64,000 nt of DNA from Ananas comosus (taxonomy: Eukaryota; Streptophyta; Magnoliopsida; Poales; Bromeliaceae): contig NC_033638.1 of NCBI RefSeq assembly GCF_001540865.1, positions 3,134,895 to 3,198,894 of the forward strand, read 5' to 3'. The position numbers were made by a program, and so were the translations under genes. Position 1 is the first letter of the stretch. Each line of letters opens with the position of its first letter. This document shows positions 4,106 to 52,395 of this stretch, in pieces. The notes below the pieces were generated by a model, which was not told where the DNA came from, ran no database searches, and was given only the letters and a program-made list of their open reading frames with translations.

Positions 4106-4619
4106 TTTGAATACTTAATCCCCATGTTGAAAATAAATTTAAGAAAAATTATTCGGATCATAAATCTATATTTGAAGGAAATCGGATTTAAATTCAGATT
4201 CAAAATGTTATCATTACTACTGAATTCAAATTTGAGTTCGAGTCCGATTGGATTAGTCAAATTTTGACACATGATCAGAAATATCCAAACCATTTTAACA
4301 TTAGATTCATGTCCCTATCATGCAATCACCACATCCAATAAATTCTACCTTTCCTAATTTAAATAACCATATTTTTTTAAAAAAATAATTAAATTGTTAA
4401 ATTGTAATAAAGTGCATTCAAGTTCTCTTTATGGAAATTCTAAGCCTGAGTATGTTATAGAATTTTTGCTTGATTGGCTATGTTTCTTCTCTATCCTTTC
4501 TTTTCTTTTGAGTGACTCTCATTCTTTTACTTTGCCCCTTATCTCAAATATACTTTTCCATAAAATCGTACTTCAATTTATGTCCTGTATTTTACCACTA
4601 TTTTAAATACATCCAAAAA
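4106..4619. other. AT-rich spacer, nothing recognised
   Basis: About 510 bases of AT-rich sequence between the LTR end at 4105 and the Helitron start at 4620. I see no gene, no clear repeat and no RNA signature. It is the local host sequence that received the Helitron between A4619 and T5620. Confidence 0.6.
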
Positions 4620-5619
4620 TCTATAGATATATTAAAAGTTAGGTTCTAACGGGGTTATGTGTCGCGTCTCCCATCGCAACAGGCGGGGCCGCATGGGCGT
4701 GTCGAGCGCACAGTGCAGCATGGCGGCGTCGGACGGGTCGCAGGCGCGAGTGGCAGCACGGCCGGGCGCGCGCGGGTCTCCCCTCTCCCTCTCCCCCCTT
4801 ATCTCCTCTCCTTCCCCCCACGCGTTGGGCGGCGCAGAGCGCCGCGATGGCGGCGCGGGCACGGCGGCGGTGAGTACAGCGCAGCGCGGGCATGCGCGGT
4901 TGGGCGGCTGATCGAGCCCCTGCCCCTCTTCTCCTCTCTCCATTTCTCTCTTCTCCCTCACCCTCTCCCTCTCCCTCTTCCCCACGGCGGTCGCGGACGC
5001 CTGAGCTGAGCGGCGGCCAGGTGTGGCGAGACTCGAGCGCCCCCCCCTACCCCTCCCCCTCTCCGGTCTCTCTCTTTCTACTCTTCTCTCTCTACTTGAC
5101 CATTAAAAAGGTAAGAAATTTAAAATTAAAGTTTAAAATTTAAAATTTAATATTTGAATTTTAAATTCAATTTATAATTTAATATTTAAAATATTAAAAT
5201 TTGAAAATTAAAATTTAAAGCTTAAAATTTAAAAATTTTACATGTTATCTTAATTACTAAAACTAAATTTTAAAATTTTACAATTTTAAATTTAGAATTT
5301 CAGTTTCTAAATTTTAAAATTTAAATTTTGAATTGCAAAATTTAAAATTTAAAATTTAAAATATAAAATCTAAAATCTAAAATCTAAAATCTAATATTTG
5401 AAACCTAAAATTTTAAATTTTAAAAGTTAAAAATAATATTTAAAATATAAGTCTGAAAGATGTTAATTTGAAATTCATCAATTTTGAATTTTAAATCTGA
5501 AAGATAATTTAAAATTCAACTATGAAATCAAAATTTAAAATTTTATTTTAAATTGAAAATTAAACTGAGATGTTAGATTGCCGATGTTGATCCGCCGCGA
5601 AGCGCGGGCCCTAAACTAG
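4620..5619 (+). mobile_element. Non-autonomous Helitron, about 1.0 kb
   Basis: The 5' end is TCTATAGATATATTAAAAG, a plant-type Helitron start (TC plus TATTAAA), preceded by A. The 3' end has a hairpin CCGCG-AAG-CGCGG a few bases before the terminal CTAG (5616-5619), followed by T, which fits insertion between A and T. No RepHel helicase is encoded. The 5' half (4640-5050) is very GC- and CT-rich (CTCCCTCTCC tracts) and could be a captured promoter or leader; the 3' half (5100-5580) is a degenerate AAATTT-rich tract. Open frames in the GC-rich half are overlapping shadows with no recognisable domain. Confidence 0.75.
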
Positions 5620-7018
5620 TATAAGATGATCACTGAATTTGAAACTAAAACATCAAACATAAATAATTTGGTTGGCTTAGCTTCATTTATTCATTTTAAA
5701 TAAACCAAACAGGCGCTCGAGCTTAGCACTTTCGCCAACAGAACCTGAACTTTGATTAAATCTCTCAAATTTTGTCAAATAGCATAATAGATCTCTCTCC
5801 TCATTCAAAGTTACAAATTAAAAAATATTCATGAATTTTTCATCACAAACTATACACATGAATAGCTTCCTTGTGTGATTGATTAAAGTTCATATTCTAA
5901 ATACCAGCGAACGGGGTTTGAAGGAAAGCCTTTGCACTATATTGATTATTCTGTTTTTGAACGCTCAATTTGAATATTGAAAACAAATCTAAATATAGAT
6001 ATTTGAATCCAAATATAGATATTTGAATCCAAAGAGAAAATTATTATTATTACTGAATTTAAATCTGAAAACTAAACAAATAGCCCATTTTGATATCCGA
6101 ATCGGACCGTCATAAAATTTACATTCTGATTCGATGGGATGATAACCCAACCATTTTCAACCCTAGAAATTAAGTGTACTATCTTTTAATCTTTCCTTAA
6201 TTAAAATAAATTAAATTTTAAAAGATTAATTGGATTGTTAATTTAAAAGTAAATATTTAACTTCTTTTCATGCAAATAGTAAAGAGGTTTTTCCTACAGA
6301 ACTTCTACCGGATTTGTCCCTTTTTTCTTTTTTGACTAGCCCACATCTCTTTACTTCTAAGAAATCATTGTGCTTCGTTACATACCTACTCCCTAAAAAC
6401 AAATCAGATTTGAAAAATAAAATGGTTTAAAAAAAAAAAAAACCTATCAGGTCGATAATTATTTAAACTCAAAATTAAATTATCTTTTAAATTTGATTCA
6501 CAAATTTAAATTTAAATTCTTGAAATTAATATAAATTTTTAAATTTTGGATATACATTAAAAAAATTAATATCATGGAACATATATAAAAACTCTGTACA
6601 GTGTAACTAAATTAAAAACAGACCTAAAAACAAATCAAATTAAAAATACATCAATTAAGAAAATAGACTCATACCACCTATAACAGTTTAAATAAAAATT
6701 ATAGAGTTTAAAATTTATTTTAACTTTAAATTTATAATTAAATTAAGTTTAATTTATAAATATTGATGTATATCACCCGTAAAGATGTTTGTAGACTGGG
6801 TTGGGTCTAGATAGTTGATATACTGTATCCGTACCCTAAAAAGAAATGGTTACAAAAAAAAAAAAAAATCCTACCCATTTAACTTCGGGTCGGATTCGGA
6901 TCTGCGTACGTAAGTTGCTAATATATCCATCGAGTTTATTTGAGTGGGTCTGGATAGTGATTACTCGTGTACTATCCGTTCATGACCGGGTATGGGTATC
7001 CCTGTATATATATATATA

Positions 7019-7561
7019 GAGTAGGTCTTGTTTGCTATTAGGAGCACGGAGGCCTCCGTGCTCCTAAGCCATTTTTAATCATGAAGCTTCCGAATCGACG
7101 ATCGGCTCCGTTAGACTTGATCTAGCGCATTTGAAGTATCTAAAAAATAAATTTTGTCATTTTTCGATATCATTTACCTAGTGATCGAAAGGGTTTAAAA
7201 TCAACGGCTGAAAATAAAAATCTCAAAAAAAGTGGTGATATAGTACTAAAATTTTCGATCAGAGATATTGATCTCGCTATAAATAGTATAAAAAATTTTC
7301 TATCAGAATTTTATTTGATTTGAATACTTCTACACCGTTAAACTTACAAATGGTTTACATCAACCATTAAAAATTGTTGATTTTGAATCTTTTGATCACT
7401 AGGTAAATGATATCGAAAAATGGCAAAATTTATTTTCGAGATACTTCAAATGCGCTAGATCAAGTCTAACGGAGCCGATCGTCGATTCGGAAGCTTCATG
7501 ATTGAAAACGGCTTAGGAGCACGGAGGCCTCCGTGCTCCTAATAGCAAACAAGACCTACTC
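7019..7561. mobile_element. Foldback MITE in a (TA)n site, at the palindrome centre
   Basis: A 543-bp element flanked on both sides by (TA)n. Its termini begin GAGTAGGTCTTGTTTGCTAT; about 150-170 bp at each end are inverted copies, including the GGAGCACGGAGGCCTCCGTG block (itself a palindrome, 7041 and 7521) and GAATCGACGATCGGCTCCGT. The central 200 bp is not palindromic and has ACACCGTTAAAC, shared with the MITEs at 11583-12117 and 12161-12715. No transposase. Insertion into TA microsatellites recalls the rice Micron elements; that comparison is from memory. Confidence 0.8.
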
Positions 7562-8997
7562 TATATATATATATACAGGGATACCCATACCCGGTCATGA
7601 ACGGATAGTACACGAGTAATCACTATCCAGACCCACTCAAATAAACTCGATGGATATATTAGCAACTTACGTACGCAGATCCGAATCCGACCCGAAGTTA
7701 AATGGGTAGGATTTTTTTTTTTTTTTGTAACCATTTCTTTTTAGGGTACGGATACAGTATATCAACTATCTAGACCCAACCCAGTCTACAAACATCTTTA
7801 CGGGTGATATACATCAATATTTATAAATTAAACTTAATTTAATTATAAATTTAAAGTTAAAATAAATTTTAAACTCTATAATTTTTATTTAAACTGTTAT
7901 AGGTGGTATGAGTCTATTTTCTTAATTGATGTATTTTTAATTTGATTTGTTTTTAGGTCTGTTTTTAATTTAGTTACACTGTACAGAGTTTTTATATATG
8001 TTCCATGATATTAATTTTTTTAATGTATATCCAAAATTTAAAAATTTATATTAATTTCAAGAATTTAAATTTAAATTTGTGAATCAAATTTAAAAGATAA
8101 TTTAATTTTGAGTTTAAATAATTATCGACCTGATAGGTTTTTTTTTTTTTTAAACCATTTTATTTTTCAAATCTGATTTGTTTTTAGGGAGTAGGTATGT
8201 AACGAAGCACAATGATTTCTTAGAAGTAAAGAGATGTGGGCTAGTCAAAAAAGAAAAATGGGACAAATCCGGTAGAAGTTCTGTAGGAAAAACCTCTTTA
8301 CTATTTGCATGAAAAGAAGTTAAATATTTACTTTTAAATTAACAATCCAATTAATCTTTTAAAATTTAATTTATTTTAATTAAGGAAAGATTAAAAGATA
8401 GTACACTTAATTTCTAGGGTTGAAAATGGTTGGGTTATCATCCCATCGAATCAGAATGTAAATTTTATGACGGTCCGATTCGGATATCAAAATGGGCTAT
8501 TTGTTTAGTTTTCAGATTTAAATTCAGTAATAATAATAATTTTCTCTTTGGATTCAAACTTCAAATATGATTTTTCTTTAAATACGATTTGGATTCAAAT
8601 ATCTATATTTAGATTTGTTTTCAATATTCAAATTGAGCGTTCAAAAACAGAATAATCAATATAGTGCAATGCAAAGGCTTTCCTTCAAACCCCGTTCGTT
8701 GGTATTTAGAATAAGAACTTTAATCAATCACGCAAGGAAGCTATTCATGTGTATAGTTTGTGATGAAAATTCATGAATATTTTTAATTTGTAACTTTGAA
8801 TGAGGAGAGAGATCTATTATGCTATTTGACAAAATTTGAGAGATTTAATTAATTGCTAAAATCAAAGTTCAGGTTCTGTTTGCGAAAGTGCTAAGCTCGA
8901 GCGCATGTTTGGTTTATTTAAAATGAATAAATGAAGCTAAGCCAACCAAATTATTTATGTTTCATGTTTTAGTTTCAAATTCAGTGATCATCTTATA

Positions 8998-9156
8998 CTA
9001 GTTTAGGGCCCGCGCTTCGCGGCGGATCAACATCGGCAACCTAACATCTCAGTTTAATTTTCAATTTAAAATAAAAATTTGAATGATTTTGATTTTCTTA
9101 GTTGATTTTTAAATTATCTTTCAGATTTAAAATTAAATTGATGATTTTTGACAAAT
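8998..9156 (-). mobile_element. Second copy of the Helitron 3' end, cut by gap
   Basis: The sequence CTAG at 8998-9001, the hairpin and the following AT-rich stretch repeat 5460-5619 in inverted orientation, with the same flanking TATAAGATGATCA sequence outside CTAG. The remaining Helitron body would lie in the 249-base gap or is absent. Confidence 0.75.
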
Positions 9157-9405
9157 NNNNNNNNNNNNNNNNNNNNNNNNNNNNNNNNNNNNNNNNNNNN
9201 NNNNNNNNNNNNNNNNNNNNNNNNNNNNNNNNNNNNNNNNNNNNNNNNNNNNNNNNNNNNNNNNNNNNNNNNNNNNNNNNNNNNNNNNNNNNNNNNNNNN
9301 NNNNNNNNNNNNNNNNNNNNNNNNNNNNNNNNNNNNNNNNNNNNNNNNNNNNNNNNNNNNNNNNNNNNNNNNNNNNNNNNNNNNNNNNNNNNNNNNNNNN
9401 NNNNN
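9157..9405. other. Assembly gap (249 N)
   Basis: A run of N at the outer end of the right palindrome arm. Sequence after the gap does not match the expected continuation of the left arm. Open frames across it are meaningless. Confidence 1.
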
Positions 9406-10228
9406 TATATTGTAGATTTTATTAAATTATCTAGACAGAACTTATTTCGACCATTATATTAACTGATTAAAGGCCTAAAATTCAAAATAATTTTATATGT
9501 AAACACATAAAAATAAAAAAATTATGATGTCATATTATAGATAAAGAGAATATAATAGTAATTACTAATATTATATACTAATATTCAAAAAAAAAGGAAA
9601 AAATAAAGCGGAATCAGAAAATTTACTAAATAGAATATTCATTAAAAAAAACTAGTTTGTCGACTTGATTGGAGAAGGAATTTGTAAAAAACTCACTTGT
9701 ACTCGCCTGCAGAGAATTAATATCGTTGTTGATGACGACGATGGAAATATTATTTCACAAAAAACTTTTAGGCAGAAATGAAACAAAAAAATAAAGAATA
9801 AAAAACAAAGAGTAAAAAATTTAGAAAAAAAGAAAGGAGTAAAAGAGCAGCTAGGGTTTCAGTATTTCACTAGGATGAAAATACTTAGAGATCCCTCGTC
9901 TATAAGTACTATTAAAATTGATCCATCAACTTCAAAAGTTCCAATCATTTTTATTTACTATCAAATATTCCATTGGGTTCGGATCCGGGTTCAGATTTAA
10001 AAACTATTCCGGACCCTACCCATTTAAAAGTTGGGCTCGGGTTGGGTCCACATCAGGTATGAATATAAAATATCCGGACCCATATCCAAAACTTTAATGG
10101 GTAATTTTTTTTATCCATATACTATTCATTTTTTATCGGGTCCAGGCCGGGTAGGGTCCGGGTCGGGTATCGGTTATCTCGAAATATTTTGGAACAGCTT
10201 AATCCTCGATGCACTAGATAAACAAATA
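9406..10228. other. AT-rich sequence with a GGGT-rich patch
   Basis: No gene is recognised. At about 9975-10175 there are repeated GGGTYCGGGT / GGGTCGGGT words, similar in style to motifs at 6885-6995 and 7580-7715 in the palindrome arms. This looks like part of a dispersed repeat; I cannot name its family. Confidence 0.5.
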
Positions 10229-11564: not shown

Positions 11565-11582
11565 CTATATATATATATAGCT

Positions 11583-12117
11583 GAGCTAGAATACTATCGA
11601 TAGCAAACGGGCTCCGTTGCCACCCATTTGTTTTCGATGATGGAGTCTCCAAATCGACGATCGGCACTGTTGAACATGATCTATACCACTGGAAGTGTTT
11701 AGAAATCAAATTTCATATATTTTTGATATTGTTCTCTTATTTATCGAGTGGACACAAAAATGAAAGGCTGAAAATGAATATTCTTTAAAAAATGATGATA
11801 GGAGTCTTGTAATCAATATCAAGAGTATAGATCTTGTTTTAAATAGTTTAAAGAATTTTCTAACAAAAATTTAATTGATTTGGATATCTTTACGCCGTTA
11901 AACGAGAAAACGCCTCATATCAACCATTAAAATTACAAATTTCGAAACCCTTTGATTATTAGGCAAATGATGTGGAAAAGATTTGAAATTTGATTTCTAA
12001 ACACTTTAAGTGATATAGATCATGTTCAACGGTGCCGATCGTCGATTTGAAGGCTTTATCATCGAAAACAAATGGTTGGCCAATGGAGACCGTTTGCTAT
12101 CGATAGTATTCTAGCTC
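11583..12117. mobile_element. Foldback MITE, 535 bp
   Basis: The terminal inverted repeat begins GAGCTAGAATACTATCGATA and the other end is its complement, ending CGATAGTATTCTAGCTC. Subterminal AATCGACGATCGGCACTGTT pairs with AACGGTGCCGATCGTCGATT. The interior CGCCGTTAAAC and TTTGATTATTAGGCAAATGA resemble the MITE at 7019-7561. The flanking piece 12118-12142 looks like the end of another MITE, suggesting nesting. Confidence 0.8.
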
Positions 12118-12160
12118 AACTCTAATAGTACAGTAGCCCTACTATATATATATATATATA

Positions 12161-12715
12161 GGGTCCGGCTACTATCCTATTAATAGGATTGGGACCCTTG
12201 TCCTTTCAAGTCGATTTGAATGATCCGAACTTCAAATTAATAATCGGCACCGTTGAAGTTGATCTACACAATTAGAAATGTTTAGAAACCAAATTTTGTA
12301 TTATTTAAAAATCATTATCAAGTTCATCTTAAGAGTTGAAAAATGAACGGTCATAAATGAATAACCTTCTTAAAATAGAGGTTAGACTTTCTCAGTTCGT
12401 ACTCAGAGTTATCAAACATTATCTAAATAGTATAAAGAATTTTTAATCAAAAATTCAAGCAATTTGGATTGCTCTACACCGTTAAACAAGCAAACGGCTC
12501 ATATAGGCCGTCAAAAATTGTCGATTTTACGACACTTTGATCACCATGTAAACCATTATCAAAATTTATGAAATTTGTTAGTTTCTAGAATTTAAAACTA
12601 CTCTAATCAACTTCAACGGCCTGCCGATCATCGATTCGGAAATATCGATCATCAAACAACTTAATAGACAACTGCTCCTATACCTATTAAAGATCGAGCA
12701 TTAGCCTCTAGAGAG
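12161..12715. mobile_element. MITE, about 555 bp, in (TA)n
   Basis: It starts GGGTCCGGCTACTATCCTAT directly after a TA run and ends just before the next TA run. Subterminal parts are inverted (AATAATCGGCACCGTTGAAG against CTTCAACGGCCTGCCGATCA). The interior has CACCGTTAAACAAGCAAACG, as in its neighbours. The right terminal repeat is degraded. Confidence 0.7.
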
Positions 12716-12744
12716 AGTAATATATATATATATATATATATATA

Positions 12745-17109: not shown

Positions 17110-17236
17110 ATATATTTCAAATACTTAGATCAACTTCAACGCTCCGATCATCGATTCAATCACGATCATTTCAAGAACTATTGGAATAGGGACACAATGT
17201 CTCCTATCCTATTAATATAAGTAAACTTTACCCTAT
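17110..17236. mobile_element. MITE right-end fragment
   Basis: AGATCAACTTCAACGCTCCGATCATCGATT and CTCCTATCCTATTAATATA match the right-hand part of the 12161-12715 type of MITE. Its left part is missing; it ends at a (TA)n tract (17231-17290). Confidence 0.6.
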
Positions 17237-17249
17237 ATATATATTATAG

Positions 17250-17286
<37 letters not shown>

Positions 17287-17290
17287 CTAG

Positions 17291-17556
17291 GTCCGGTAGG
17301 CTGCTATTCTATTAAAAGAATTGGATCCACCGATGTCCCTAATCCAAGCTACGTTTTGAAGCGATCTGAAACTTCAAATGAATAATCAGCAGCCGTTTAA
17401 GCTGATCTACCACAATTAGAAAATATTAGAAAACACAAAATTTTAAATATTAAAATTATTATCAAGTTCATTCTAAGTTTTGAAAAATGAACCGCATAAA
17501 TGTAATAATCCCTAAAATAGAGTGACTTTCTCAATTCATAATCAGAGTTATCAATG
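17291..17556. mobile_element. MITE left-end fragment
   Basis: It starts GGTCCGGTAGGCTGCTATTC after (TA)n and aligns with 12163-12415 (AACTTCAAATGAATAATCAGC, TTATCAAGTTCATTCTAAG, ACTCAGAGTTATCAA). It is broken off at about 17556, where unrelated LTR-like sequence begins. Confidence 0.65.
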
Positions 17557-18177
17557 ACAGGACTGAATTTTGACAGTGCAACTACAAACTCTCTGTTGAC
17601 GATGTTTATGCGGGGGCGGGGTAATTTAATTACATAAGCACCTGCGTGAAGTTTTAGAACACGAAACTGAATCTAAAAAGGAGACGATACGGCTACGAAT
17701 TTTTAGATTTCACTAGGCATGAATAGTAACATTTAGGAATAATCAGAAATCGTTTAAACACGAGGATAACCACGGTACACCAGTTGCTCTGGTCGCTATC
17801 GACCCTTCATATCATCCAATAAGCTCGTTTCAAGCCAGCTTCATTGTTCTCTGGAAACTACCGGCGGACGGCATTTGAGAGTTTAGAGAATGACACACAA
17901 TGGTGTGCGCACGAAAAGCAAAATACATGTTTTATATGTAATTGTAATGTGTGATATTCATTCTGCTGTTGGAAGAAAGTTAGATTTCGATCGCGACAAC
18001 CGTGGAGTCGATTCATGATGAACCAAAAATCGTAGATTTGCCCATCGGTCTGACGCATTGGTAGCAATCCTTCGCTAAATCTGACTACGGAACTGGTCGC
18101 AAAATCACGATCAACCACGAACGCGTTGCTCGAGGAAGTCGGTGATCGACAAAATGATATTTTTTTCATAGGACCAA

Positions 18178-18312: not shown

Positions 18313-18340
<28 letters not shown>

Positions 18341-18345
<5 letters not shown>

Positions 18346-18732
18346 TAGACTACTATACTATTAATAGCATTAAGCGCTTGTTGCTATTATATTTTTGGCC
18401 TTTGGGTGAAGAAATGTATGGTTAGGATGATAGTGATCCTTTAAAGTTGAGTGGATGGTTGGTTGAATAATATGATGTAACAGATGGAAATAGTTAAAAG
18501 GGTAAATCTAACGGTGAAAAACTCCATATATAGTACCAAATGCTTGGTACAATTGATAATATAGTAGCCAGACTCTATATATCTATACTATATATTAAAG
18601 TTAATAGGATTTCTTACCATGAATCAAAAAGGAATTAAAAAAATTTTCTACAAATGGTTTTGATCAATTTGTTAAAAAATTTATCAAACAAGAATGAACA
18701 TTATGATCAATCTGTTAAAAAATAGTATTCCT
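18341..18732 (+). repeat. MITE plus Helitron-like start, duplicate of 10291-10753
   Basis: A TA-flanked MITE (18341-18575, ending ATAGTAGCCAGACTC) is followed directly by TCTATACTATATATTAAAG (18582) and then by a stretch nearly identical to 10625-10752 (ATAGGATTTCTTACCATGAA, CAAATGGTTTTGATCAATTT). Both sides are assembly gaps, so this is a small isolated piece. Confidence 0.8.
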
Positions 18733-20400: not shown

Positions 20401-20978
20401 AAGAGAACCCCTATAGCTTATATATATACTTTACGAATCAAAACGAGTAGGATCAGATAAGTTTCTTTCCAAAACACACCATGTACCGGAACAAGTAAAG
20501 CGTCCAGGGTACCAGACATGAACGGAAATCACATGCGAAGCTGCTGTACCTGACCAGACTCGGCATCTTGTACCAAACAGGCTGTACCCTGAACAGCCCT
20601 TGATTATTGTCCCGGATACATACATCAACTTTTCTGTACAAACGCGATAGGCGTACCCTGACAAAAACTCTTTTATGCGTACAACAACTCATTCGCTGAA
20701 AATCATTGTCGAATTGTTTCGAGTTTTACAAGCTCTTAGAAACTTTCTAATCAATTACAACTTGAAAACATGATTCTAAAATCTATAATTAAGTATGAAT
20801 CACCATAAACAAGATTTAAAGCTTACCTAAGCATCGTGATTCATGTTTTACATGTTTTGCGTCCTTTCTGATTCTTCGAAGTCTTGGATTCTTCGATCTT
20901 CAATACTCCGCTCCGGACTTCTTCAAGACTCCGACTCGGCCGACGAAACTTGCCAACACATAGGACCTAACACAATCC
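20401..20978 (-). mobile_element. LTR fragment abutting a decayed gag-protease
   Basis: Read on the minus strand it has scattered GTACC/GGTAC words (20470-20660), then a leader-like part ending CTTAG|GTAAGC (20825), the donor-like pattern seen in the other LTR leaders. It joins the protease reading frame directly at about 20979, so a recombination breakpoint lies there. Confidence 0.45.
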
Positions 20979-22586
20979 ATGCCTAAAATGACGTCGTACG
21001 CCTCCAGTTTAACGAGTTCTAACATCCGGATGGGCATTATCCAATCACCCACTTGCACCGGACACGACGAGCACTCCGTGTAGGTGTTAAATGACGAGTC
21101 GGGACCTTCGACTCGCCACTTGCCACTTGCTTCAATGGGTATGTCATGCATGCGTGCAAATGCTCTACTAATAAACGAATGCGTGGCACCCGTATCGAAC
21201 ATAGCTCTGGAGGGAACTCCATGGATTAGAACCATACCTGCCACAACATCAGGCTCTTCAGCTTGGATAGGCTCCTCGGCTTGGGCCTGAGCGGCGAACA
21301 CCTATCCGCTCGGCGCTGATCGAGTCACCTCCGGTTGGCGTGGTGCCAGTGCACGCCCTGCTGACACAGGGACATATGGGGCCCCTTCCTGATAAGGCGG
21401 GGGCGCTGGAGTCGATGCGACTAACGGAGTAGACGAGGCCCTTGCCGGACAGTCGCGGCTGATGTGTCCCTCTTGTCCACAATTAAAGCACCTTCCCTGT
21501 CGCTGTCTACACTGCGGTGCCCGATGGCCTCTATCTCCTCAGATAGGGCACCGCTGTGGCCCACGGCCCCACGACTGCGACCGCGGATGCTTCGGGGGCC
21601 TCCTCGAACTAGATTGTCCCCCCGAACCGCCACCCGATCGCTTCTTCCCCTTGTCTTGGGATCCGGCCAACAACTCGCGTTCCTCCCGCACGTGGGCATC
21701 TCCATGCTCTGCCCACAGCGCCTTGTTGAAAACCTCGGTGAAAGTCGTGAGCTGGAACAATTGCACTGCCCGATATATCCACGGCCGGAGTCCCCGCAAG
21801 AACCACTCGGCTCGATCCGCGTCATCCTTAACAACGTCCGGGACGCAATCTATGATATGGGAGAACTTCTGCTCATAGTCCACCACCGAACGGTCTCCCT
21901 ATCTCAATTTGCGAAACCTCTCCTTCAACTTCCGCTTCTCGGTGTCGGGGAAGTAATTTCTGAACATCTCCTTCTTAAACTCCTCCCAAAGCATTGGTGG
22001 AAGGTCAGAGGGTCGATCCTGCTTCAACCTCTTCCACCATACCTTCGCCGCCTTTTCAAGACAATGGGTGGCGAGGGGCACCTTATCCTTCTCCGGGGTA
22101 TATAGGTCCTCGAAGAGGGTCTCCATAGAGTCAATCCAAGACTCCACCACCGGCGGCTCCACCTTTTCCCCTTCAAAAGTTGGTGGTTTAAACTTCATGA
22201 ACTTCATCAGAGTCGTCAGCGCACGTTCCCACTCCACTTCGTCGGCCGTCGTATCAAGTGTCGCCGAACCCGAAGCTGTCGGAGGCGCACTTGTCTGCTG
22301 CCGCCATCGGAACTGCCGCTATGCCCTCACCCTCGACCGCTACCGGCGTGCGCGCCGAAGGTGCGGGCGGATCGCGATCTCTTGCCGCTGTCGCGGCCGC
22401 CGCCGCTGCCGCTTGCCGCTCCACGACTTCCTGGACCTGCTCGAACCGAGCCTCCTGGCGCTGCATCGCGCCCAACATCGCAGCGACCTGCTCCCGCAGC
22501 TCCTGCACCTTCTCCGATCTTGGCTGCTCGGGCTCCGCAGAAGGCGATACCGGAGCAGACCTGCGTACGTAACGCCTTGGGGACAT
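20979..22586 (-). pseudogene. Decayed Ty3/gypsy gag-protease fragment
   Basis: This is the N-terminal part of a Tekay/Del-type polyprotein closely related to the one at 48750-52027. In order it has the N-terminal MSPRRYVRRSAPV leader (22586), the Gag core ([29 protein letters not shown]), a single remaining zinc-knuckle start (CPI) and the protease ([12 protein letters not shown] at about 21200). Lesions: a frameshift near 22300; a TAG at 21899-21901 where the sister copy has CAG; a TGA replacing the second zinc-knuckle cysteine codon near 21537; a further frame change before 21301. The frame breaks off after VILGMD at about 20979 and joins unrelated LTR sequence. It lies just inside the 5' LTR at 22960-28172. 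It is non-functional. Confidence 0.85.
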
Positions 22587-22959
22587 TTGCTCCTAAAAAG
22601 CAACAACTCAATTAGTTATCTTAACCTGATAACTTTTTAACGTTCGCGAAACGAAACAACTCAATAATGAAATCGGGCGGAAGCTCGCAAGTGCTCTAGT
22701 GTTGGACTCTTAGTGTTGCGTCGTCGGGCGCCGACACAACCACTACAAGCCAAGAAACTAGTGTCACTTGGATCCGTCTCTATTCACAGCTAGAGACATG
22801 ACACCAACTTCGACCCAATCAATCAACTTCCGCCACCGTCAATGGCGTTCTACGTTCACCTCACTCGTCCCTCATAACCTAGGGTTTACCATACGGGTCT
22901 CCTAAGGTCATCCTAGACTCTCTCCTTTACTTTCATCTGTATCTTTATACCACTTTATC
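22587..22959 (-). other. Retrotransposon 5' leader with mutated primer-binding site
   Basis: Untranslated leader between the 5' LTR and the gag start. Adjacent to the LTR end the minus strand reads AAGTGGTATAAAGAT, a damaged version of the TGGTATCAGAGC site kept intact at 52377-52388. The leader aligns with 52028-52395. Confidence 0.7.
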
Positions 22960-24989
22960 TGTCCACCCCCAAGACCCGCTACCATTTGGTTTGGCCCCCG
23001 GCGCGTCGAACAGACGACCGAAACGGACAGGACCTCCCCCTGTCGCCCAATGGCTAGCCAACAAGATCATGTATAAAATTCCAGGAATCAATTCAAAATA
23101 CACTGATCAAGAAGCAGCCACCAGTACAACAACCAAAACAAGATACAATAATTTAAACCATATAGAAGTACATAAAAGAGAAGGTTATCTATTACATCAT
23201 TCAACTTAGTAATTTGAACTCAACTTTTACATTCTTCCAAAAATATAAATACACCACTCCAAACCTCACCCTATACATGCATTCTACTCTCATAATATAA
23301 AATTAAGGGTAGAGCAATAATACAAAAGGGTAGGCTGGCTAATGTCAACTAGGGCGGCGGGCCCTTACCGCGATCCTCACGCTCCGCCCGAGACAGCCGA
23401 ACTCGACCTGTAAAAAGTTGGGTGAGAACTAACTTCCTTAGTTCCCAGTGGGTTCGGCCGCCGACTCCGCCGGTCTCCCCACTAGGTCCAAGTGGGCACA
23501 GGTAGATAAACAGATAGATAGATATGGAAAGCTGTAGAAGCAGATAGAAAACTACTCTACTATGCTTGAATCATAAACATATGGATGCATGTACAATGAA
23601 GTGGTAAGCGACTAACCCGTCAGCATGTCCAAAAGTAAAGCTATGCACTTATTCATCAATCTCGTTTACTTGTTTCTTAATCTCGTGGCTTCTCTGAAAG
23701 CTTGCCTACTGCTCACTAGCCATCTCGAAGGTAGGGAGGGTCAACTCGCACTACAAACTGAGACCGTCTGCCGGGACCCAAAATAGGCAATCCCTTGGGA
23801 CCCAAAATAGGCAATCCCACGTGACCAACTCCGGAGCGCACTTCTTGTGTGGGGCTTCCATCACAAGCTAAAACAGACCGTGAGCATGATCCAATTCTCT
23901 CCACTCTAGGGTTACTACCATCATGTGGTCCATAGGCATCGTATACACCAAGTTCAACATGTATTACTTGTTTTCTTATACACTATCAACTAGACTGCCA
24001 CTCGTCCATTGTTTACTATCGAGTAGATGCCACTCGTCCATTGTTTACTATCGACTAGATGCCACTCGTTCTTTGTTTAACATTAGACCAACCATTGAGC
24101 CCATCTCTTTCTCTGCACTATAGGATTCACAAGTCTCGACCCAATCCTTATCGATCCACTATATCAAGTATCCAATACATGTTACGATATCATCAAGGAA
24201 AGCATAAGGAAAGGCAATGCACAATCATCCTATAATGCAATAATATAAGATGCAAGAATCGAAATGTACTAAGACATAGAAGGGGGCCCAGTTGCTTCGG
24301 GATGGTCACCACCCACCTCTTGGTGATGCCGCGATGATAGAAAACTTGACGTCGCGGTTCTTGCACGTCGCCCTAGCTCCTCGGGGCGAAGAGAGCCCTC
24401 AAGTACCCGCTCGGCGATTTCTCCGCACCTGCTCGTCGGATCGAGAAACTGACTTCGCCAACGCGTTCCGGGACCTAGCAATTAGGTTTGTGACCTATTA
24501 AATTAGACCAAAACCCTAGATTTCCAAAATCCTAATTTCGTGCCCTAGAATGGCAACGGGGAAGAAATCCGTGGTGCGAGCTTCAATTGCGAGCCCGAAC
24601 CATCTATTTATCTCCTCTAGGTTCCATTCGAACCAATTCTAAACAATAAAACCCAATCCTAAGAAATCCACCATGGATGGGTTTGGAGCTTACCTCTAAG
24701 CCAAGCTCCAAGCTTGCCCTAGCTTGAAGGAGAGAGGGAAGAAGACCTTCTTCTTCTTCTTTTGGACTTCTCCTTCCACTTCTTTTTCTTTGCCTTCCTC
24801 TCTTTCTCCTCCTTCTTCTTCTCCTTCTTTTCTTTCTAGAGAGAGAGAGGGAAAAAGTGTGAGATGGAGAGAGAGCAAATGAGAGCGGAAGAGGGGTTCC
24901 CCAGCCTCTAATAAAGGCCATTTTGCAAATAGCCCCTCCAACTTTTCATCTTCAGAATCAGCCCTCTCTGGGCATTTTCGTAGTGAGTG

Positions 24990-25192
24990 ATCGGTCCCAG
25001 CTCGAGGAGACCGGTCCCCGAAAGCTGCAATTCCGAGCAGAGGGGATTTCGCGTTCGGGAACCGGTCCTTGCCTGAGAGACCGGTCCCCGGGAGACCGGT
25101 CCTTGTCCGAGAGACCGGTTCCCGAAAGTTGGATTCTCGGGACTTAGCCAAATTTTGGCTATTCTCGCTGGGCTGACGTTCGGGAACCGGTC
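24990..25192 (-). promoter_or_regulatory. U3 array of GACCGGTC palindromes
   Basis: Words of type GGACCGGTCC / GAGACCGGTC recur about every 15-50 bases, upstream of the TATA-like box. The solo LTR at 25193 is inserted inside one of them (the target duplication is CGGTC). Confidence 0.6.
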
Positions 25193-27911
25193 TGTCACGC
25201 CCCGGGACCGGCGAAGGCCCTCCCGGTAGCGCGCCCAAACCGGCCGTATGTCTACACATATAAGGCGTCTACAACAAAAGCGGAAGTAAAGCAAGAAGTA
25301 GAACAAATAGCATAGTGATAACTAATGATATCAGAGCGAGTAAAGTTCTATCATCTAAACCAGAGTAAAAGAAACATAACTAAACAATAAAAGTAGCCAT
25401 AAAGTAGTACAATACTATCTCCTCAAAAGAAAAATAAAGATCCAAAAGAAGGGTGGTCTCTATACATAAACGGGTACAACTCACAACCTCTCACAAAATA
25501 AAACCACGAGAGATAGACCACCTATCAAATCGTCCTCGAAAGAAGCTAGCTCGAAGCAACTCCCTTCCCGCGGTCCCTAGCCTCTCCCGGCGTGGAAGGC
25601 TCTGAAAGAAAACATAAAACAGAGGGCGTGAGAACTATAATTTGTAGTTCCCAGTAGGCAATTACTGACCTTAGCTCATTGCACCGCTAGGCCCAAAAGA
25701 AAAGGGATAAGTAACGACAAATAGTGATAAGCGATAATTGGCGAGTATAAAAACTGTTGAAAGGAAGCATGAATGAAATGCTATACTACTATGTCTCCAA
25801 TAAGCATGATGTCATGGTGATGTACATCTACGCTATCATAAAGTAATATATCCAATGCATACTAATATACCTCAACATGATGAACAAGTAAACCTCACAA
25901 TACAATATGTCAAAACATAAGGAGTAAGTTCTATCAAGACAACCCAGTATATTATGATGCACTGCATGAAACCGGCAAGTGTACTATATACCCCAATGCT
26001 ATATCATGAGCATGTTAAGTAATCCAACTACTAAGCCTATCTAGTAGTGATTATTCATCCTCAACACTGTGTCGATTTTCTTTTCCAATCAAGGACCTAC
26101 CAAAGGTAGTCCAGCTTGTGCCGCCTAAGTGCCTGTGGTAGCCCAACATCCCTACTCTTGGAATGTGTCTGTCCTACTCGACCCCGTATGCTTCTCAATA
26201 CCGCACGAGCGAACATAGGCGTAGGCTAACTCCGGAGTGCCGACTTGTACGGAGCGACCCTCACAAGCATGTGTGAATGAGCACAAATGGCAAGCAAGCA
26301 AGGTCAAAGTCTCAAGTGCTCTACTCTCATGCCTCTCACATTGCAAGGCCACTAGCATCCCAAGGATCTAGTCCAAAATCTCAAAGTGACGCTCCAACGC
26401 ACACACTTGCTTAGTGCCTCTTTACGACACTTAAACATCACAACTAATCATGCCTAATTCATGTTCCATATTCCAATTAAAACAATACTAGCTAGGTTCA
26501 CTTTAGCCCGGGCCCAATGACTCTTTATGACATTGGCCCAATCTCTCAAATAGTCTAAGTCCTCAAGCCTCTCTAGGCTTCCAAAAATTTCTAATGTCAT
26601 AAGTGGCAAATAAGCTAAATGCATGAAAGCAAGGTCCATTTTCATAATAGGGATCTTAGTTTCAGTCTCAACCAGAATGCTATATCACACATGTATGCTC
26701 TCTACTACATAGAGGCCCAAAATTTTACTATATGCAACATAGGCATTTTAAGCATTCTAAAATTCAAAATAAATACATATAACAAGAATATGCATGCTTT
26801 TTCAATTAATGATACTTAATTCATCACAAATGAGAATTTCTCATTGTGTGGCTAGGCCAAACCCACCGAACCGTCGCGTGCTCCTTCGATTCACCGAACG
26901 GAGTTGTCCACGAGCCTCAAAATACCCTAAAAGTATTGAGCGAAGAGATACACGGGCATTACGATCAACTACAAGATCAAATATTAACTAACAAGACAAA
27001 AGGGCTAAAACTCACCTAAAGAGAAGAAATCTCTTCCAAAGCTCCAAAAGAGAGCTATAACCCTTCCAATCCAAGCCCAAGGAAGGTTCTAAACCAACTA
27101 ATTTAGCCCCAAAAGCCCTAGATCAAAAATGCCCAAAATCAACCCTACAATTCCATTCTAGGGTTCCATCTACTAAAAACCTTCAAATCAAAGTCTAGAG
27201 GAAGAAAAAGAGCAACAAACCTCCTTAGAAGCTCCAATCCAAGCTCCAAGAGTGAGATCTCCTCTTTGACAAGCTCCAAGTTCAACCTCCAAGCACCAAG
27301 GAAGAAGAGAGGGTGAGGAAGATGCTCCAAGTCCACTATTAGCTCTCAAACTTCTTCTTCTTCCTTCCTTCTTCTCCTTCTCCTTCTTCTTCTTCTTCTC
27401 TATCAAGGGTGTAGAGAGAGTTGAGAGAAGAGAAATGAGGAGAAGAGAGAGTGGATGGGTCATATAGACCCCTCTATTGTAACAAAATCCAGCTAGGTCC
27501 CCCCAAAAATCCAAAATTACAACAGCCCGGTCTGGGCAGTTTTCGCCCAGAGGGACCGGTCTCTCCCCAACAGGGACCGGTCTCTCACTGCGAACCCGAG
27601 AAACCAACGTTCGGGAACCGGTCTCTCCCTGCGCGGGACCAGTCTTTCACTGCGAAGATGAGCTCGGGGACCGATCTCGCCCGCCAGGGACCGGTTGCCT
27701 CAAGGCTGCCGCAACACTGCTCACTGGGGGACCGGTCTCTCCTTCCAGGGATCGGACCCCGAGAGTAAAAACTCTCGGGACTTGTCCAGAATTTCAGTTT
27801 TCGAACTTTTTAGGTCGGAAAACATTCTACAACCCTCCACCAAGTGTGGAAAAGCTCGAAATACATCCAAGCACTCGAACCTCGCAATTTGCAGAGGTCC
27901 AGTGTGTTACA
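25193..27911 (-). mobile_element. Solo LTR (type B), 2719 bp, TSD CGGTC
   Basis: It starts TGTCACGCCCCGGGACCGG and ends GTGTGTTACA, with perfect 5-bp target duplications CGGTC at 25188-25192 and 27912-27916. Its 3' two thirds match the plus-strand solo LTR at 40339-43014 (same CTTATATGTGTAGACATA, hairpin at 25632-25650, CTCCGGAG at 26230-26237), but its U3 (27540-27775) carries GACCGGTC palindromes instead of TACCGGTA. TATA-like TCTATATGACC lies at 27455-27475. No internal region: a solo LTR left by LTR-LTR recombination. Open frames are antisense shadows. Confidence 0.92.
27540..27775 (-). promoter_or_regulatory. U3 palindrome array of solo LTR B
   Basis: At least five GGGACCGGT(C/T) words plus decayed ones (GGGACCAGTC, GGGACCGATC, GGGATCGGAC) at 30-50 base spacing, upstream of the TATA-like site. 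Confidence 0.6.
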
Positions 27912-42603: not shown

Positions 42604-45159
42604 AGCCTTCCACGCCGGGAGAGGCTAGAGACCGAGGGAAGGGAGTTGCTTCGAGCTAGCTTCCTTCGAGGGCGATTTGATAGGTGGTCTACCTCTCGTG
42701 GTTTTATTTTGTGAGAGGTTGTGAGTTGTAGCCGTATATGTATAGAGACCACCCTTCTTTTGGATCTTTGTATTCCTTTTGAGGAGATAGCATTGTATCA
42801 CTTTGTGCTTTTCTTTCATTGTCTAGTTATGTTTCTTTTACTCTGGTTTAGATGATAGAACTTTACTCGCTTTGATATCATTAGTTGTTATTATTCTATT
42901 TGTTCTATTTCTTGCTTTTACTTCCGCTTTTATTGTAAACGCCTTATATGTGTAGACATATGGCGGGTTTGGGCGCGCTACCGGGAGGGCCTCCGCCGGT
43001 CCCGGGGCGTGACACCAGCCCCCTTAGAGGGCTTTCTTGTGCCCTAACTAGTGGAGAACAAGGTGAGAACTCTCCCCTCTTGGTTCTTCTCCATTTTTGA
43101 TGGGTTTTTGCTTATTTTGATCTTCTCCTCTTTATGTTTCTTTGCTCCTTGTTGGTTTCCTCCATGGGAGAAGCTTGGAGCTCATGATTGGAGCTTCATT
43201 GAGGGAAGATCTTGGGAGCTTGTGGACTTTGGGCTTGTCGGAAGCCTTCTAGAGGTTAGTGGCTAACTTCTTTCCTCTAGATCCTAATTTTGCTGCTTTT
43301 TGTTGGTAGAAACCCTAGATTTGGGATATTAGGGTTGGAATTTGGGGATTTTTGATTTGTGGGCTTTAGGACCAAATTGATGGGTTTAGAACCTTCGTGT
43401 AGGTTGGGTTGGAAGGATTCTTGCTCCCTTTTGGAGATCAAGAGAGATTTTCACCACTTTTAGTGAGTTTTTAGCCCTTTCCTTGAGTTGCTTAATGTTT
43501 GAACTCATGATTTGTCGTTTCGATGTTGTAACTCCCCTAACCTATCTCTTAGGGTGCTAGGAGTGATTACCGAAGCTTTGTTAGCATTTTGGACGCCTGC
43601 GCGAAGACTTTGGTGGGTTTGGCTTCATTGAAATAGGGGAAAATGCCTCCTACGTGGTTAAATGTTTTCGTATACTATAAATGCATGCATATCCATGTTG
43701 AATAGAATTCATATGAATTTTAGAATGCTTAAAACTCATATGTTATGCATCATGATAAAGATTGACTCTATGTTGTAGAGAGAAGCATATGCATTGTTAG
43801 TATGCATGAGTTCAATGTTCTAATGAATGATCTAAGATCATGTTTCTTGTGTGGAAAATGATTAGAATGATAAGCTTTTAGACTTACTATTCATATTGGG
43901 ACATTGTAAGCAAAAGTTTCATAAAGGGGCACTTGAACTAGAAAATCGTTGAACTACAACTTAGAGACATGATGATAGGCCACTGGAAATTTGCTATATT
44001 CCATGTTTTAGACATGATGACATAGAAATAGGCCATTGAGATAGTTACTATATTCCGTGTTTTAGACACGATGACATAGAGGCAGGCCTTTGGGACATGT
44101 GCTGTATTCCGGGTTTTAGATCCGATGAAACAGTGATGAACCACTGGGACCTGAGACGGACTTATTCGCTTGCATGTCATTGTGCTCATTCGCACATACT
44201 TGTGAGGGTCGCTCCCTACAAGTCGGCACTCCGGAGATAGCCATCGCGACATATGCTCGCCCGTGCGGGATTGGGCGCCAAAATGGGATGCCGTGGGGGA
44301 GGCTCATTCCTAGAGTGGGGATGTTGGCTACCACGGGGCCATTGTTGGCACGGCGCAGGCCAGACTACCTACGGGTAGCTTCCACAGGATTGGGTTACTG
44401 GTGACATACTGTACCTTTTGAACATTGACTAGATTAGTAAATAATGACATCTTTACTATTTACATTGTGGATATTGGGTTAGTTGCATACTTATGCATTT
44501 ACATGTTGGATACTCTTGTGCACATGCTTGTAGTAGTTGCTTTCTTACTTATGCAACTTCATACTAAGTAGAGATCATGTGATAGTTTATTACTTATGCA
44601 AATCTATGCTAAGTAGAGATCATATGGTAGATTATTACTGATGAAAGTAGTGACTTCATGCTATATTGAGCTTCCATTTCAGCGAGTTATTTGTTCATAT
44701 TATTCTTACCTGCCTTGCTGTCACGCCCCGAGACCGCTACCAATTTGGTCCGGCCCCGGGCGCGTCGAACAGACGCCGAACGGACAGGACCTCCCCTGTC
44801 CGTCCAAGGCTAACCAACAGATCATGTATAAGAATTTGCCCAGGAATCAATTCATAAATACACGATCAAGAAGCACCACCAGTGCAACAATCAAGAGCAA
44901 GATACAAGTATAGAAACATATACAAGTACATAAGAGAGAAGGGGCTATCCATTACATTCATTTGATTTACTACATTTAAGTACGTCTTTTACATTCTTCC
45001 AAAAATATAAGTACAAGCACTCAAACCTCACCCTATACAACATCTACTCTCAAATACAAAAAGGGTGACAGCTAATGCAAAAGGGAGGTAGCTAATGCAA
45101 CTAGAGCGCCGGGCCCTTACCACGATCCTCACGCTCACCTGGGACGCCCGAACTCGAAC

Positions 45160-45198
45160 CTATGGTAAAATGGGGGTGAGAACTAACTTCCTTAGTTC
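45160..45198 (-). promoter_or_regulatory. Conserved hairpin and acceptor-like site, Tekay 3' LTR
   Basis: In sense: CCCACTGGGAACTAAGGAAG then TTAGTTCTCACC, a 7-bp stem; then CCATTTTACCATAG|GTTCG. Copies are at 52822-52875 (5' LTR, one stem-flank change) and 23406-23444. Confidence 0.5.
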
Positions 45199-46737
45199 CC
45201 AGTGGGTTCGGCCGCCGACTCCGCCGATCTCCCCACTAGGTCCAAGCGGGCAAAAGTAGATAATCGATAGATAGATAGATAAGGAAAGCGGTAATGACAG
45301 AAGTAAAGCTACTCTACTATGCCCAATCATAAATATATGAATGCATGTACAATGGAATAGGTAAGCAATTAACCCATTATCATGTCCAAAGGTAAAGCTA
45401 TTTACTCGTTCATCAATCCCATTTACTTGTTTCTTAATCTCGTGGCTTCCCTGAAGGAGCCTACTGCTCACTAGCCATCTCGAAGGTAGGGAGGGTCAAC
45501 TCGCACTACGAACCGAGACCGTCTGCCGGGGCCTAAAATAGGCAATCCCTTGGGACCCAAAATAGGCAATCCCACGTGACCAACTCCGGAGCGCACTACT
45601 TGTGTGAGGCTTCCATCACAAGATTTAAAAACAGACCGTGAGCATGATCCAATCCTCGTCTCGAGAATACCCTATCCTCTAGGGTTACCATCATCATATA
45701 GTCCATAGGTTTCACATACACTATGACTCATATGTGTCATTTGTTCTCTTATACACTATTAACTAGATTGCCACTCGTCCATTGTTTACTATCGACTAGA
45801 TGCCACTCGTTCTTTGTTTAACACTAGACCAACCGTTGAGCCTATCTCTTTCTTTGCACTATAGGATTCACAATCTCGACCCAATCCTTATCGATCCACT
45901 ATATCAAGTATCCAATACATGCTACGATATCATCAAGGAAAGCATAAGGAAAGGCAATGCACAATCATCCTATAATGCAATAATACAAGATGCAAGAATC
46001 GACATGTACTAAGACATAGAAGGGAGCCCGATTGCTTCGGGATGGACACCACCCACCTCTTGGCGATGCCGCGATGATAGAAGACTCGGCGTTGTGGTTC
46101 TTGCACGTCGCCCTAACTCCTCGGGGCGAAGCGAGCCCTCGAGTACCCGATTCGGCGATAACTCCGCACTCGCTCGTCGGATCGGCAAACCGTCTTCGCC
46201 GACGCGTTCCGGGACCTAACAATTAGGTTTGCGACCTAATAGATTAGATCAAAACCCTAGATTTCGAAAATCCCCAATTCCGTGCACTAGAATGGCAATG
46301 GGGAAGAAATCCGTGGTGCGAGCTTCGATTGCGAGCCCGAACCACCTATTCATCTCCTCTAGGTTCCATTTGAACCAATTCTAAGCAATAAAACCCAATC
46401 CTAAGAAATCTACCATGAGTGGGTTTGGAGCTTACCTCTAAGCCAAGCTCCAAGCTTGCCCTAGCTTGAAGGAGAGAGGGAAGAAGATGATCTTCTCCTT
46501 CTTCTTGATCTTCTCCTTCTCTTTTCTCTTCTTTTCATTCTTCTTCTTCTTCTTCTTCTTCTTCTTCTTTCTTCTTCTCTTTCTTTTCTTTCTAAAGAGA
46601 GAGAGGGAAAGAGTGAGAGAGTTAGAGAGCAATGAGGGAAAGAGAGGGGTCCCCCACCTCTATTAAAGGCCATTTTGCAGATAGCCCCCTCAACTTTTCA
46701 TCCTTCAAACCAGCCCTCTTTGGGCATTTTCGCAGTG

Positions 46738-47035
46738 AGGGACCGGTCCCAGCTCGGGGATACCGGTCCCCGAAGGCTACCATCTCGGGCAGAGGGATTT
46801 TCGCGTTCGGGAACCGGTCCTTGCCTGAGAGACTGGTTCCTGGGAGACCGTTCCTTGTCCGAGAGACCAGTTCCCGAAAGTTGGATTCTCGAGACTTAGC
46901 CAAATTTTTGGCCATTCTCGCCGGGCTGACGTTCGGGAACTGGTCCCTGCCTGCAAGGGACCGGTCTCATCAGAGACCCCCGCAGCCCAGCCCAATGGAA
47001 CCGGTCCCTCCCTGCCAGGGACCGGTCCCCGGGAG
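46738..47035 (-). promoter_or_regulatory. U3 palindrome array of the Tekay 3' LTR
   Basis: GGGACCGGTCCC, TACCGGTCCCCG, GGAACCGGTCC, AGGGACCGGTCTC, GGAACCGGTCCC and AGGGACCGGTCC words with decayed ones between them, upstream of the TATA-like box. The array recurs in the copies at 22960-28172 and 59310-60428. Confidence 0.65.
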
Positions 47036-47201
47036 CAATTCTTCTCCAGTGCAGATTTTGCACTGGTGCTCCAGCGGACCCTTCCTTAATGCACTTTATG
47101 CATTATAATCACCCTCGGACTTTCTAAAGCTTACGCACTCGACAACTAGTCGATTCTAATCGAAGTCTAATCCTCGAGTTTCGAGAATTCACTTCCTCAC
47201 A

Positions 47202-48749: not shown

Positions 48750-51644
48750 CTAAGCCGGGATCTCGGGAGCAACCACTTCGAGGTCCAGTCGCTCCATCTC
48801 CAGCCCTAGGGGTGTTTGCCGAGTAACATCAAAAGCGAGGTTCTTCGTCGACTTTCTGCTAAGCGCATCCGCGACCACATTTGCTTTGCCGGGGTGGTAG
48901 AGAATGTCAACATCATAATCCTTTAATAGCTCTAGCCACCGCCTTTGCCGCATATTCAGCTCCTTCGGGGTAAATAGATACTTCAGACTTTTGTGGTCGG
49001 TGTAGATCTCGCAGTGTGCACTGTATAGGTAATGCCTCCACAACTTCAGCACAAAGATCACCGCCGCCAACTCCAAGTCATGGATGGGGTAATTCTTCTC
49101 GTGGTCCTTCAGCTGACGGGATGCATAAGCTATCACCCTCCCGCCTTGCATCAAAACACACCCCAAGCCCAGATAGGATGCATCGCTATAGACCACAAAG
49201 TTCTCGCCCTGCACCGGTAAGGCGAGTATCGGAGCCGACGTCAATCTTTTCTTCAATTCGTTGAAGCTTTGGTCACACTCGTCGCTCCAAATAAACTTGG
49301 CGCCCTTCTGAGTCAAACCGGTAAGTGGAGTTACAATTTTCGAAAAGCCCTCCACAAAACGTCGATAATAGCCTACTAAGCCTATAAAGCTTCGGACCTC
49401 CGTGACGTCCGTCGGGCGTGGCCAATTCTCGACTGCTTCGATTTTCCTCGGGTCAACTGAAACACCGCCCTCGGAAATCACATGCCCTAAGAAGGCAAGC
49501 TCTTGAAGCAAGAAATCACATTTCTTCAGCTTTGCGAACAGCTTCTCCTCCCGAAGGATTTGAAGCACTATCCGCAAATGTTCCGCGTGCTCCTCATCAC
49601 TCCGCGAATAGACCAAGATGTCGTCTATGAAGACCACGACAAATCGGTCCAAGCACGCCCTAAATATACGGTTCATCAGATCCATGAACGCCGCTGGGGT
49701 ATTAGTGAGCCCGAAAGGCATAACCGTGTACTCATAGTGTCTATAACGCGAACGAAACGCGGTCTTCTGAATATCCTCCGGCTTGATCTTTAACTGATGA
49801 TAGCCGGATTGTAGGTCTATCTTCGAGTACACTCGTGATCCCTGTAATTGATCAAATAGGTCGTCGATTCGGGGCAACGGGTACTTATTCTTTATTGTGA
49901 CCTTGTTCAACTCTCGATAATCTACGCAGAGTCGAAAGGAACCATCCTTCTTGCGCACGAACAACACCGGCGCTCCCCACGGTGATACGCTCGGCCTGAT
50001 AAACCCTTTGTCGAGAAGATCTTGTAACTGATCCCTCAATTCTCTTAACTCTGCCGGCGCCATGTGGTAGGGGGCCTTCGAGATTGGCGTCGTCCCGGGA
50101 ATCAAGTCTATAACGAACTCGATCTCCCGATCCGGCGGCATCCCCGCTAGCTCCGCGGGAAATACATCCGGGAATTCCCGCACCACCGATAGTTCCTCCA
50201 AATTCGGAGCCGCTCGGTCCACCTCCACGACGGTCGCCAAAAATGCTACGCAGCCGCCGTTGACCAACTTTCTAGCTCTCGTCGCCGATACTGTCGCGAC
50301 GAAGCAAGAACACCGACAAGCTCGATAAACGAACTCCCTCTGTCCTGGCTCCCGAAAGGTGATCGATTTATTCTTACAATCGATCGTGGCGTAATACTTT
50401 GAGAGCCAGTCCATGCCCAAAATGACATCATACGCCTCCAATTTAGTGAGTTCCAACATCCGGATGGGCATTATCCAGTCACCTACTTGTACTGGGCATG
50501 ACGAGCATTCCGTGTAGGTATTAAACGACGACTCAGGACCCTCGACTCGCCATTTGCCACTCGCTTCAATGGGTATGTCATGCATGCGTGCAAATACTCT
50601 ACTAATAAATGAATGCGTGGCACCCGTATCGAACATAGCTCTGGAGCGAACTCCATTGATTATAACCATACCTGCCACAACATCAGGCTCCTCGGCTTGG
50701 GCAGGCTCCTCGGCATGGGCCTGAGCGGCGAATACCCGTCCGCTTGGCGCTGATCGAGTCACCTTCGGCTGGCGCGGCGCTAGTGCGCGTCCCGCTGATA
50801 TAGGAACATACGGGGCCCCTCCTTGATAAGGCGAGGGCGCTGGAGCCGATGCGACTGACGGAGTAGACGAGGCCCTTGCCGGACAGTCGCGGCTAACATG
50901 TCCTTCTTGTCCACAATTAAAGCACCGTCCTTGTCGTTGTCTACACTGCGGTGCCCGATGACCTCGATCTCCACAGATAGGGCACCGTTGCGGCCCACGG
51001 CCCCACGACTGCAACCGCGGATACTTCGGGGGCCTCCTCGAACTCGATTGTCCGCCCGAACTGCCGCCCGATCGCTTCTTCCCCTTGTCTTGGGATCCGG
51101 CCAACAACTCGCGTTCCTCCCGCACATGGGCATCTCCATGCTCTGCCCATAGCGCCTTATTAAAAACCTCGGCGAAAGTTGTGAGCTGGAATAATTGCAC
51201 CGCTCTATATTTCCATGGCCGAAGTCCTCGCAAGAACCACTCGGCTCGATCCGCGTCGTCCTTAACCACGTCCGGGATGCAGTCTATAATGTGGGAGAAC
51301 TCCTGTTCGTAGTCCGCCACCGAACGGTCTCCCTGCCTCAGTTTGCAAAACTTCTCCTTTAGCTTCCGCTTCTCGGTGTCGGAGAAGTAATTTCCAAACA
51401 TCTCCTTCTTAAACTCCTCCCAAAGCATTGGTGGAAGGTCAGAGGGTCGATCCCGCTTCAACCGCTTCCACCACACCTTCGCTGCCTTGTCGAGGCAATA
51501 GGTGGCGAAAGGCACCTTATCTTTCTCCGGGGTGTACAGGTCCTCGAAAATAGTCTCCATAGAGTCTACCCAAGACTCCACCACCGACGGCTCCACTTTC
51601 CCCCCTTCAAAAGTTGGTGGCTTAAACTTCATAAACTTCATCAT
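48750..51644 (-). pseudogene. gag-protease-RT-RNase H frame, 964 codons
   Basis: The largest open frame in the window. Residues 1-180: Gag core ([31 protein letters not shown]). Residues 221-234 and 241-254: two CCHC zinc knuckles ([28 protein letters not shown]). Residue 339: protease DTG in [12 protein letters not shown]. Residues 530-760: reverse transcriptase with [31 protein letters not shown] and the FIDD catalytic motif (672-675). Residues 815-930: RNase H ([23 protein letters not shown]). Gag and Pol are one frame, usual for chromoviruses. The apparent Met start is internal; the true start is near 52027 in another frame. It ends at a TAG (48750-48752) that is CAG in the sister copy. 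Confidence 0.93.
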
Positions 51645-52376: not shown

Positions 52377-52388
52377 GCTCTGATACCA
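52377..52388 (-). other. Primer-binding site, tRNA-iMet
   Basis: TGGTATCAGAGC on the minus strand, eight bases inside the 5' LTR end. It is complementary to the 3' end of plant initiator methionine tRNA. Confidence 0.92.
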
Positions 52389-52395
52389 CTTTATC

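Follow-up and report, generated by a model that had tools for sequence, protein, structure and literature searches.

A palindrome centred on a MITE in the pineapple genome, probably an assembly fold-back through the terminal repeats of the element

Closest described systems

Haplotype-derived false duplications and chimeric joins occur in short-read assemblies. The palindrome described here resembles them in having an allele-like second copy, which ends at a gap and for which no other locus copy was found among the scored candidates of the assembly, but the copy is joined in inverted orientation, through the terminal repeat of a MITE. Foldback inversions and inverted duplications in yeast, as presented in the consulted excerpts of PMC10622511 and PMC7467729, share with this locus an unmatched central loop and arms that are continuous with the repeats. 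Unlike these, the pineapple copy is interstitial, retains its far flank, shows no copy end and diverges stepwise along the arms, and its biological origin is hypothetical. The element at the centre has its closest counterpart in Ac-mMITE-1, which is described in part of Lin, Sharma and Yu 2021 (PMC8449440) as 510-570 bp long with terminal repeats of 140-180 bp, (TA)n flanks and GA...TC ends. The same source reports (TA)n as the target of Ac-mMITEs. Among the titles and abstract openings surveyed, neither a MITE-centred palindrome or inverted duplication like this one nor a fold-back or inverted mis-assembly of this kind was found.

The central MITE and its terminal repeats

The window, that is, the whole stretch of 64,000 nucleotides analysed (C18:3134895-3198894), contains a MITE at 7019-7561 on the plus strand, which starts with GA, ends with TC and is bordered by (TA)7 on both sides (7005-7018 and 7562-7575). 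Its length of 543 bp lies within the range published for Ac-mMITE-1, and its terminal repeats of about 185 bp, a length also given by the consensus of 22 other copies, lie just above the published range. The repeats enclose an unmatched interior loop of about 170 bp, so that the palindrome centre is itself an inverted repeat. The left repeat includes a 30-bp perfect palindrome (7038-7067), with its mirror copy at 7513-7542. The focal MITE fits Ac-mMITE-1 when compared by the published description rather than by a consensus sequence: length, long terminal repeats, (TA)n on both sides and GA/TC ends are alike, and the species is presumably the same. Long mirrored flanks distinguish the focal copy, and the main text of PMC8449440 contains neither "palindrom" nor "inverted duplication". 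A TA run is present on at least one side of 21 of the 22 other copies (read by eye; L019 lacks it), and, allowing up to three mismatches, a 38-base piece of the family interior was counted 850 times, versus 19 times for a reversed control. Further (TA)n-linked elements are located at 11580-12120, 12150-12730, 17234-17560 and 18340-18590, clustered as described for Ac-mMITEs; the first two match the central MITE at 71% and 67%, respectively.

Comparison of the terminal repeats revealed a peculiarity of the focal copy. In the focal MITE, the two repeats differ from each other at 5 of 116 inner and 0 of 50 outer positions, whereas each of the 22 other copies, which come from 20 loci, shows 8-18 differences over about 116 inner positions and 1-10 over about 50 outer ones. 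Four private variants of the focal MITE are mirrored in both repeats, versus none or one in each of the 22 others, although it also carries three unmirrored private variants. Two strings containing mirrored variants each occur five times genome-wide, namely at the two focal ends and, once each, at three other places. Given the mirrored private variants and the low mismatch, the right repeat of the focal copy seems, over much of its length, to be the left repeat copied in inverted orientation. The switch from the right repeat's own type to the inverted left copy probably lies within 7424-7452. One position does not fit: next to the switch interval, on its inner side, 7158/7422 is mirrored, though the adjacent 7157/7423 keeps the right-repeat type. 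A turn within the 30-bp palindrome was considered and dropped, since further mirrored private variants lie deeper in the terminal repeat.

The mirrored arms

A blastn comparison of the first 20 kb of the window with its own reverse strand matched 7376-9148 to 7205-5471 over 1778 columns at 96.0% identity, and base-by-base alignment gave a mirror sum of 14580 for a palindrome of about 3.7 kb centred on the MITE. A sequence-only reading of this DNA had reported mirrored arms around the MITE, with the symmetry running on into its terminal repeats, and had called for an alignment of the arms; both features are borne out by that alignment, as the mirror sum and the mirrored private variants inside both repeats indicate. 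Outside the MITE, 1592 columns are mirrored at 96%, which rules out chance symmetry. The left arm (5471-7018, plus strand) is the genuine left flank of the MITE, as the host repeat at its inner end resumes on the same strand past the gap. The right arm (7562-9156, minus strand), aligned as its reverse complement, is an inverted copy of that flank, probably the other allele joined backwards. Its homology persists right up to the edge of an assembly gap of 249 N (9157-9405), and therefore its natural end is hidden; position 9156, given earlier as the end of the palindrome, is where the gap cuts a still homologous arm.

Identity between the arms falls into three zones, with 5 differences in 116 positions of the inner terminal repeat (4%), 1 in the next 1028 (0.1%) and 14 in the next 568 together with 10 indels (2.5% plus indels). 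Expressed by coordinates, the proximal arm (6043-7020; zone of the left arm, 6043-7018) shows one substitution in 978 bp and no indel, and the distal arm (5471-6042, with its counterpart at 8538-9148 in the right arm) shows 14 substitutions in 568 aligned bp and 9-10 indels, a count that varies slightly with the start chosen and includes indels of 13 and about 18 bp. The difference rates of distal and proximal arm differ significantly (Fisher p 7e-6). The uniform identity expected from one copying event was thus not found, for which gene conversion afterwards could be an excuse.

A search of the 382-Mb assembly (381,958,007 bases, 3128 contigs) gave no second full copy of the arm among the best 40 of 643 and the best 40 of 213 candidates. 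This argues against the palindrome as a single dispersed foldback element, since only inner pieces of the arm are repeated elsewhere among the scored candidates (6780-6995 at 81-85% and approximately 6393-6763 at 69-83%). The latter segment is a dispersed repeat in its own right, present at at least 38 other places at that identity and as at least 10 shorter pieces. Further out, a short GC-rich hairpin at 5591-5619 (mirror at about 8998-9026) is followed by CTAG and T, an arrangement that we take to resemble a Helitron 3' end; the rest of such a candidate element would extend to the left of 5619. Just outside the left arm, 5116-5450 consists of about 47 degenerate AAATTTA copies, a tract that the mirrored arm would enter just beyond the gap edge and that may have caused the contig to stop there.

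The survey of the family covered 47 MITE copies, comprising the focal copy, one other in the window and 45 in 20 fetched loci; 46 were testable, one flank being too short. A mirrored piece was detected within the tested limits at seven copies, with 1592 columns at 96% at the focal copy and 80-409 columns at 66-87% at the six others, so that long and close mirrored arms are confined to the focal copy among the 46. No focal-like arms are present at the eight other copies with a gap within 1.6 kb. Of the six minor cases, L016 and L020 were inspected and the remaining four were scored by columns and identity only. L016 was rejected because the mirrored counterpart of 106 bp adjoining a gap is only 87% identical and lies beside, and partly within, a diverged MITE (4305-4846), which we read as neighbouring MITEs, and L020 because its mirrored piece is a microsatellite. 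The sequence-only reading had suggested a look for other MITE-centred palindromes, and none comparable exists at the 45 other testable copies (21 sequences).

The host repeat and the order of events

In each arm, the innermost 216 bp (6780-6995) correspond to the left end of a dispersed repeat, here named R, which occurs at at least 38 other places at 81-85%. R is a non-autonomous, hAT-like element with TAAAGRTGTC ends, and its other copies show the short inverted ends and 8-bp target duplications of such elements; the hAT label is our assumption from the ends and the duplication length. Both ends were found by end motifs in 12 of 18 fetched copies, giving a length of 739-866 bp, and the remaining six had no motif match. 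Read by eye, 11 of the 12 have exact 8-bp duplications at their flanks, and L046 has a near-exact one. In the focal R, 4 of 8 target-duplication bases are alike, which is too decayed to use.

The focal R lies in two halves on the plus strand. The left half (6780-7018) stops at the left (TA)n of the MITE, with (TA)7 at its end, and the right half (9406-10201, outer end placed from a decayed end motif) begins directly after the gap. In two fetched copies, L037 and L038, R runs on into sequence matching 9410 onwards (82% over 673 columns in L038); the other 16 have a different interior and match the post-gap piece only from its base 308-396 or so on. At at least 6 of the 38 non-focal places listed, the left part of R is succeeded, 28-48 bp further on and in the same orientation, by sequence of the 9410 type. 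Between the focal halves, 25 + 4 = 29 bp are left over, which fits this range; therefore, R lacks no part and the right flank starts at 9406. As the halves fit on one strand across the MITE, the MITE was inserted into R, and its true right flank lies behind the gap. Judged from this fit, the right arm, together with the gap, separates the MITE from its real right flank, an order which implies that the MITE came first and that the fold-back through its terminal repeats followed, either in the cell or in the assembly.

Origin of the palindrome

A fold-back made during assembly is the probable origin of the palindrome, ahead of a natural hairpin. In the plant, a (TA)n-targeting Ac-mMITE-1 would sit inside R. 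The left-hand contig would enter the MITE, turn round in the right terminal repeat, a sequence similar to the reverse complement of the left one, and run backwards along the left flank, distally along the other allele, to its end at 9156; the scaffolder would then have set the true right flank (9406 on) behind the 249-N gap. We infer both that software made the fold-back and that the distal differences are allelic. Several features favour the assembler. R is interrupted precisely at the MITE, and the copied arm ends at a contig edge, between the feature and its true flank. Beyond the gap, sequence resumes at the (TA)n border of the MITE, a place at which contigs built from short reads would break off. 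Divergence of the arms comes in blocks, a pattern that two alleles sharing a near-identical stretch might give. Among the scored candidates in the assembly, the arm has no second copy elsewhere. The published heterozygosity of F153, the presumed source, is reportedly near 2%. The presumed source assembly is also fragmented, with a contig N50 of 0.02 Mb and 6.79 Mb of N, and a collapse of similar short-read sequences has been suggested for it in part of PMC8824783, the table of which gives F153 as 377 Mb and so possibly refers to another F153 version. Chimeric regions are reported for F153 v7, and pineapple is called highly heterozygous, in the consulted part of PMC8774480. Some observations count against an assembly fold-back. 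A gap sized at 249 suggests that the arm was compatible with the linking reads, the second zone has to be almost the same in both alleles, or collapsed, for 1 kb, this kind of fault is absent at the other tested MITE copies, eight of them with a gap within 1.6 kb, and the switch is not clean, given 7158/7422 beside the right-type 7157/7423.

A real inverted duplication, in which the MITE served as hairpin primer, is a distinctly less likely alternative. After a break at the right end of the MITE, the right repeat would anneal within the strand to the left repeat, and at least 1.6 kb of left flank would be copied and rejoined; the near-identity of the inner 1 kb would be due to later gene conversion between the two arms or to copying that switched to the homologue. 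The topology is the same as that shown by R, and the four mirrored private variants, against none or one in each of the 22 other copies, agree with this account as well as with an artefact. In yeast, priming by foldback at short inverted repeats is an established process (PMC10622511). The gap, too, would be attributable to the AAATTTA-rich tract that comes next in the mirrored arm. However, the junction would have to lie inside a gap whose far edge is the border of the MITE, the zones of identity need a second event, and no similar case exists at the 45 other testable copies. In addition, a 1-kb palindrome at 99.9% identity is difficult to assemble correctly from short reads. The sequence-only reading had proposed that the MITE hairpin seeded the inverted duplication by a break, foldback priming and copying of one flank; its order of events is supported, in that R places the MITE first and the copy of the left flank was added via a terminal repeat, but its setting in the plant is not supported. 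A fold-back by the assembler is the simpler explanation of where the gap lies, of the contig restart at the (TA)n border and of the stepwise identity.

A laboratory snap-back chimera, in which an incomplete strand with its end in the right repeat used the left repeat as template during amplification for synthetic long reads and the chimeric read was then assembled, would produce an identical topology, and Moleculo reads were used for F153 (PMC6022998, in part). Since such a molecule copies itself, 14 differences in 568 bp and 10 indels in the distal arms would be unexpected, which makes this origin improbable. A palindrome from a missed adapter in a long read is disfavoured by reasoning, as a turn of that kind has no unmatched 170-bp loop. 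Insertion of the MITE at the centre of an older palindrome, whether random or preferential, could appeal to the (TA)n targeting reported for Ac-mMITEs (PMC8449440), because the MITE-less centre would be (TA)n, but it is extremely improbable: the R halves, both on one strand, join up across the MITE with the expected base count, placing the site inside an intact R, and the mirrored private variants tie the arm to this copy of the MITE. The sequence-only reading had likewise judged a chance insertion unlikely.

Significance and other features of the window

If the palindrome is an artefact, it serves as a warning: an abundant MITE with near-perfect terminal repeats can make contigs built from short reads double back, and the false palindromes that result would confuse genome scans for inverted duplications or for loci of hairpin RNA. 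If it is real, the locus would clearly exemplify an inverted duplication seeded by a MITE, and the interrupted host repeat would show the structure before and after the event; (TA)n MITEs, which number tens of thousands, would then be latent seeds of long palindromes, later homogenised near the centre by gene conversion, were the role as hairpin primer true.

For the window, no match was obtained in Rfam at gathering thresholds, nor, as expected, in a near-match search of a plasmid collection. Large direct repeats with 85-97% mutual identity are located at 20973-25211, 44718-47201, 50407-53138 and 59318-60435 and, as a guess, perhaps represent retrotransposon sequence. At 1338-1612, a 137-bp tandem duplicate at 88% identity contains a single N at 1475 and is perhaps another forced contig join.
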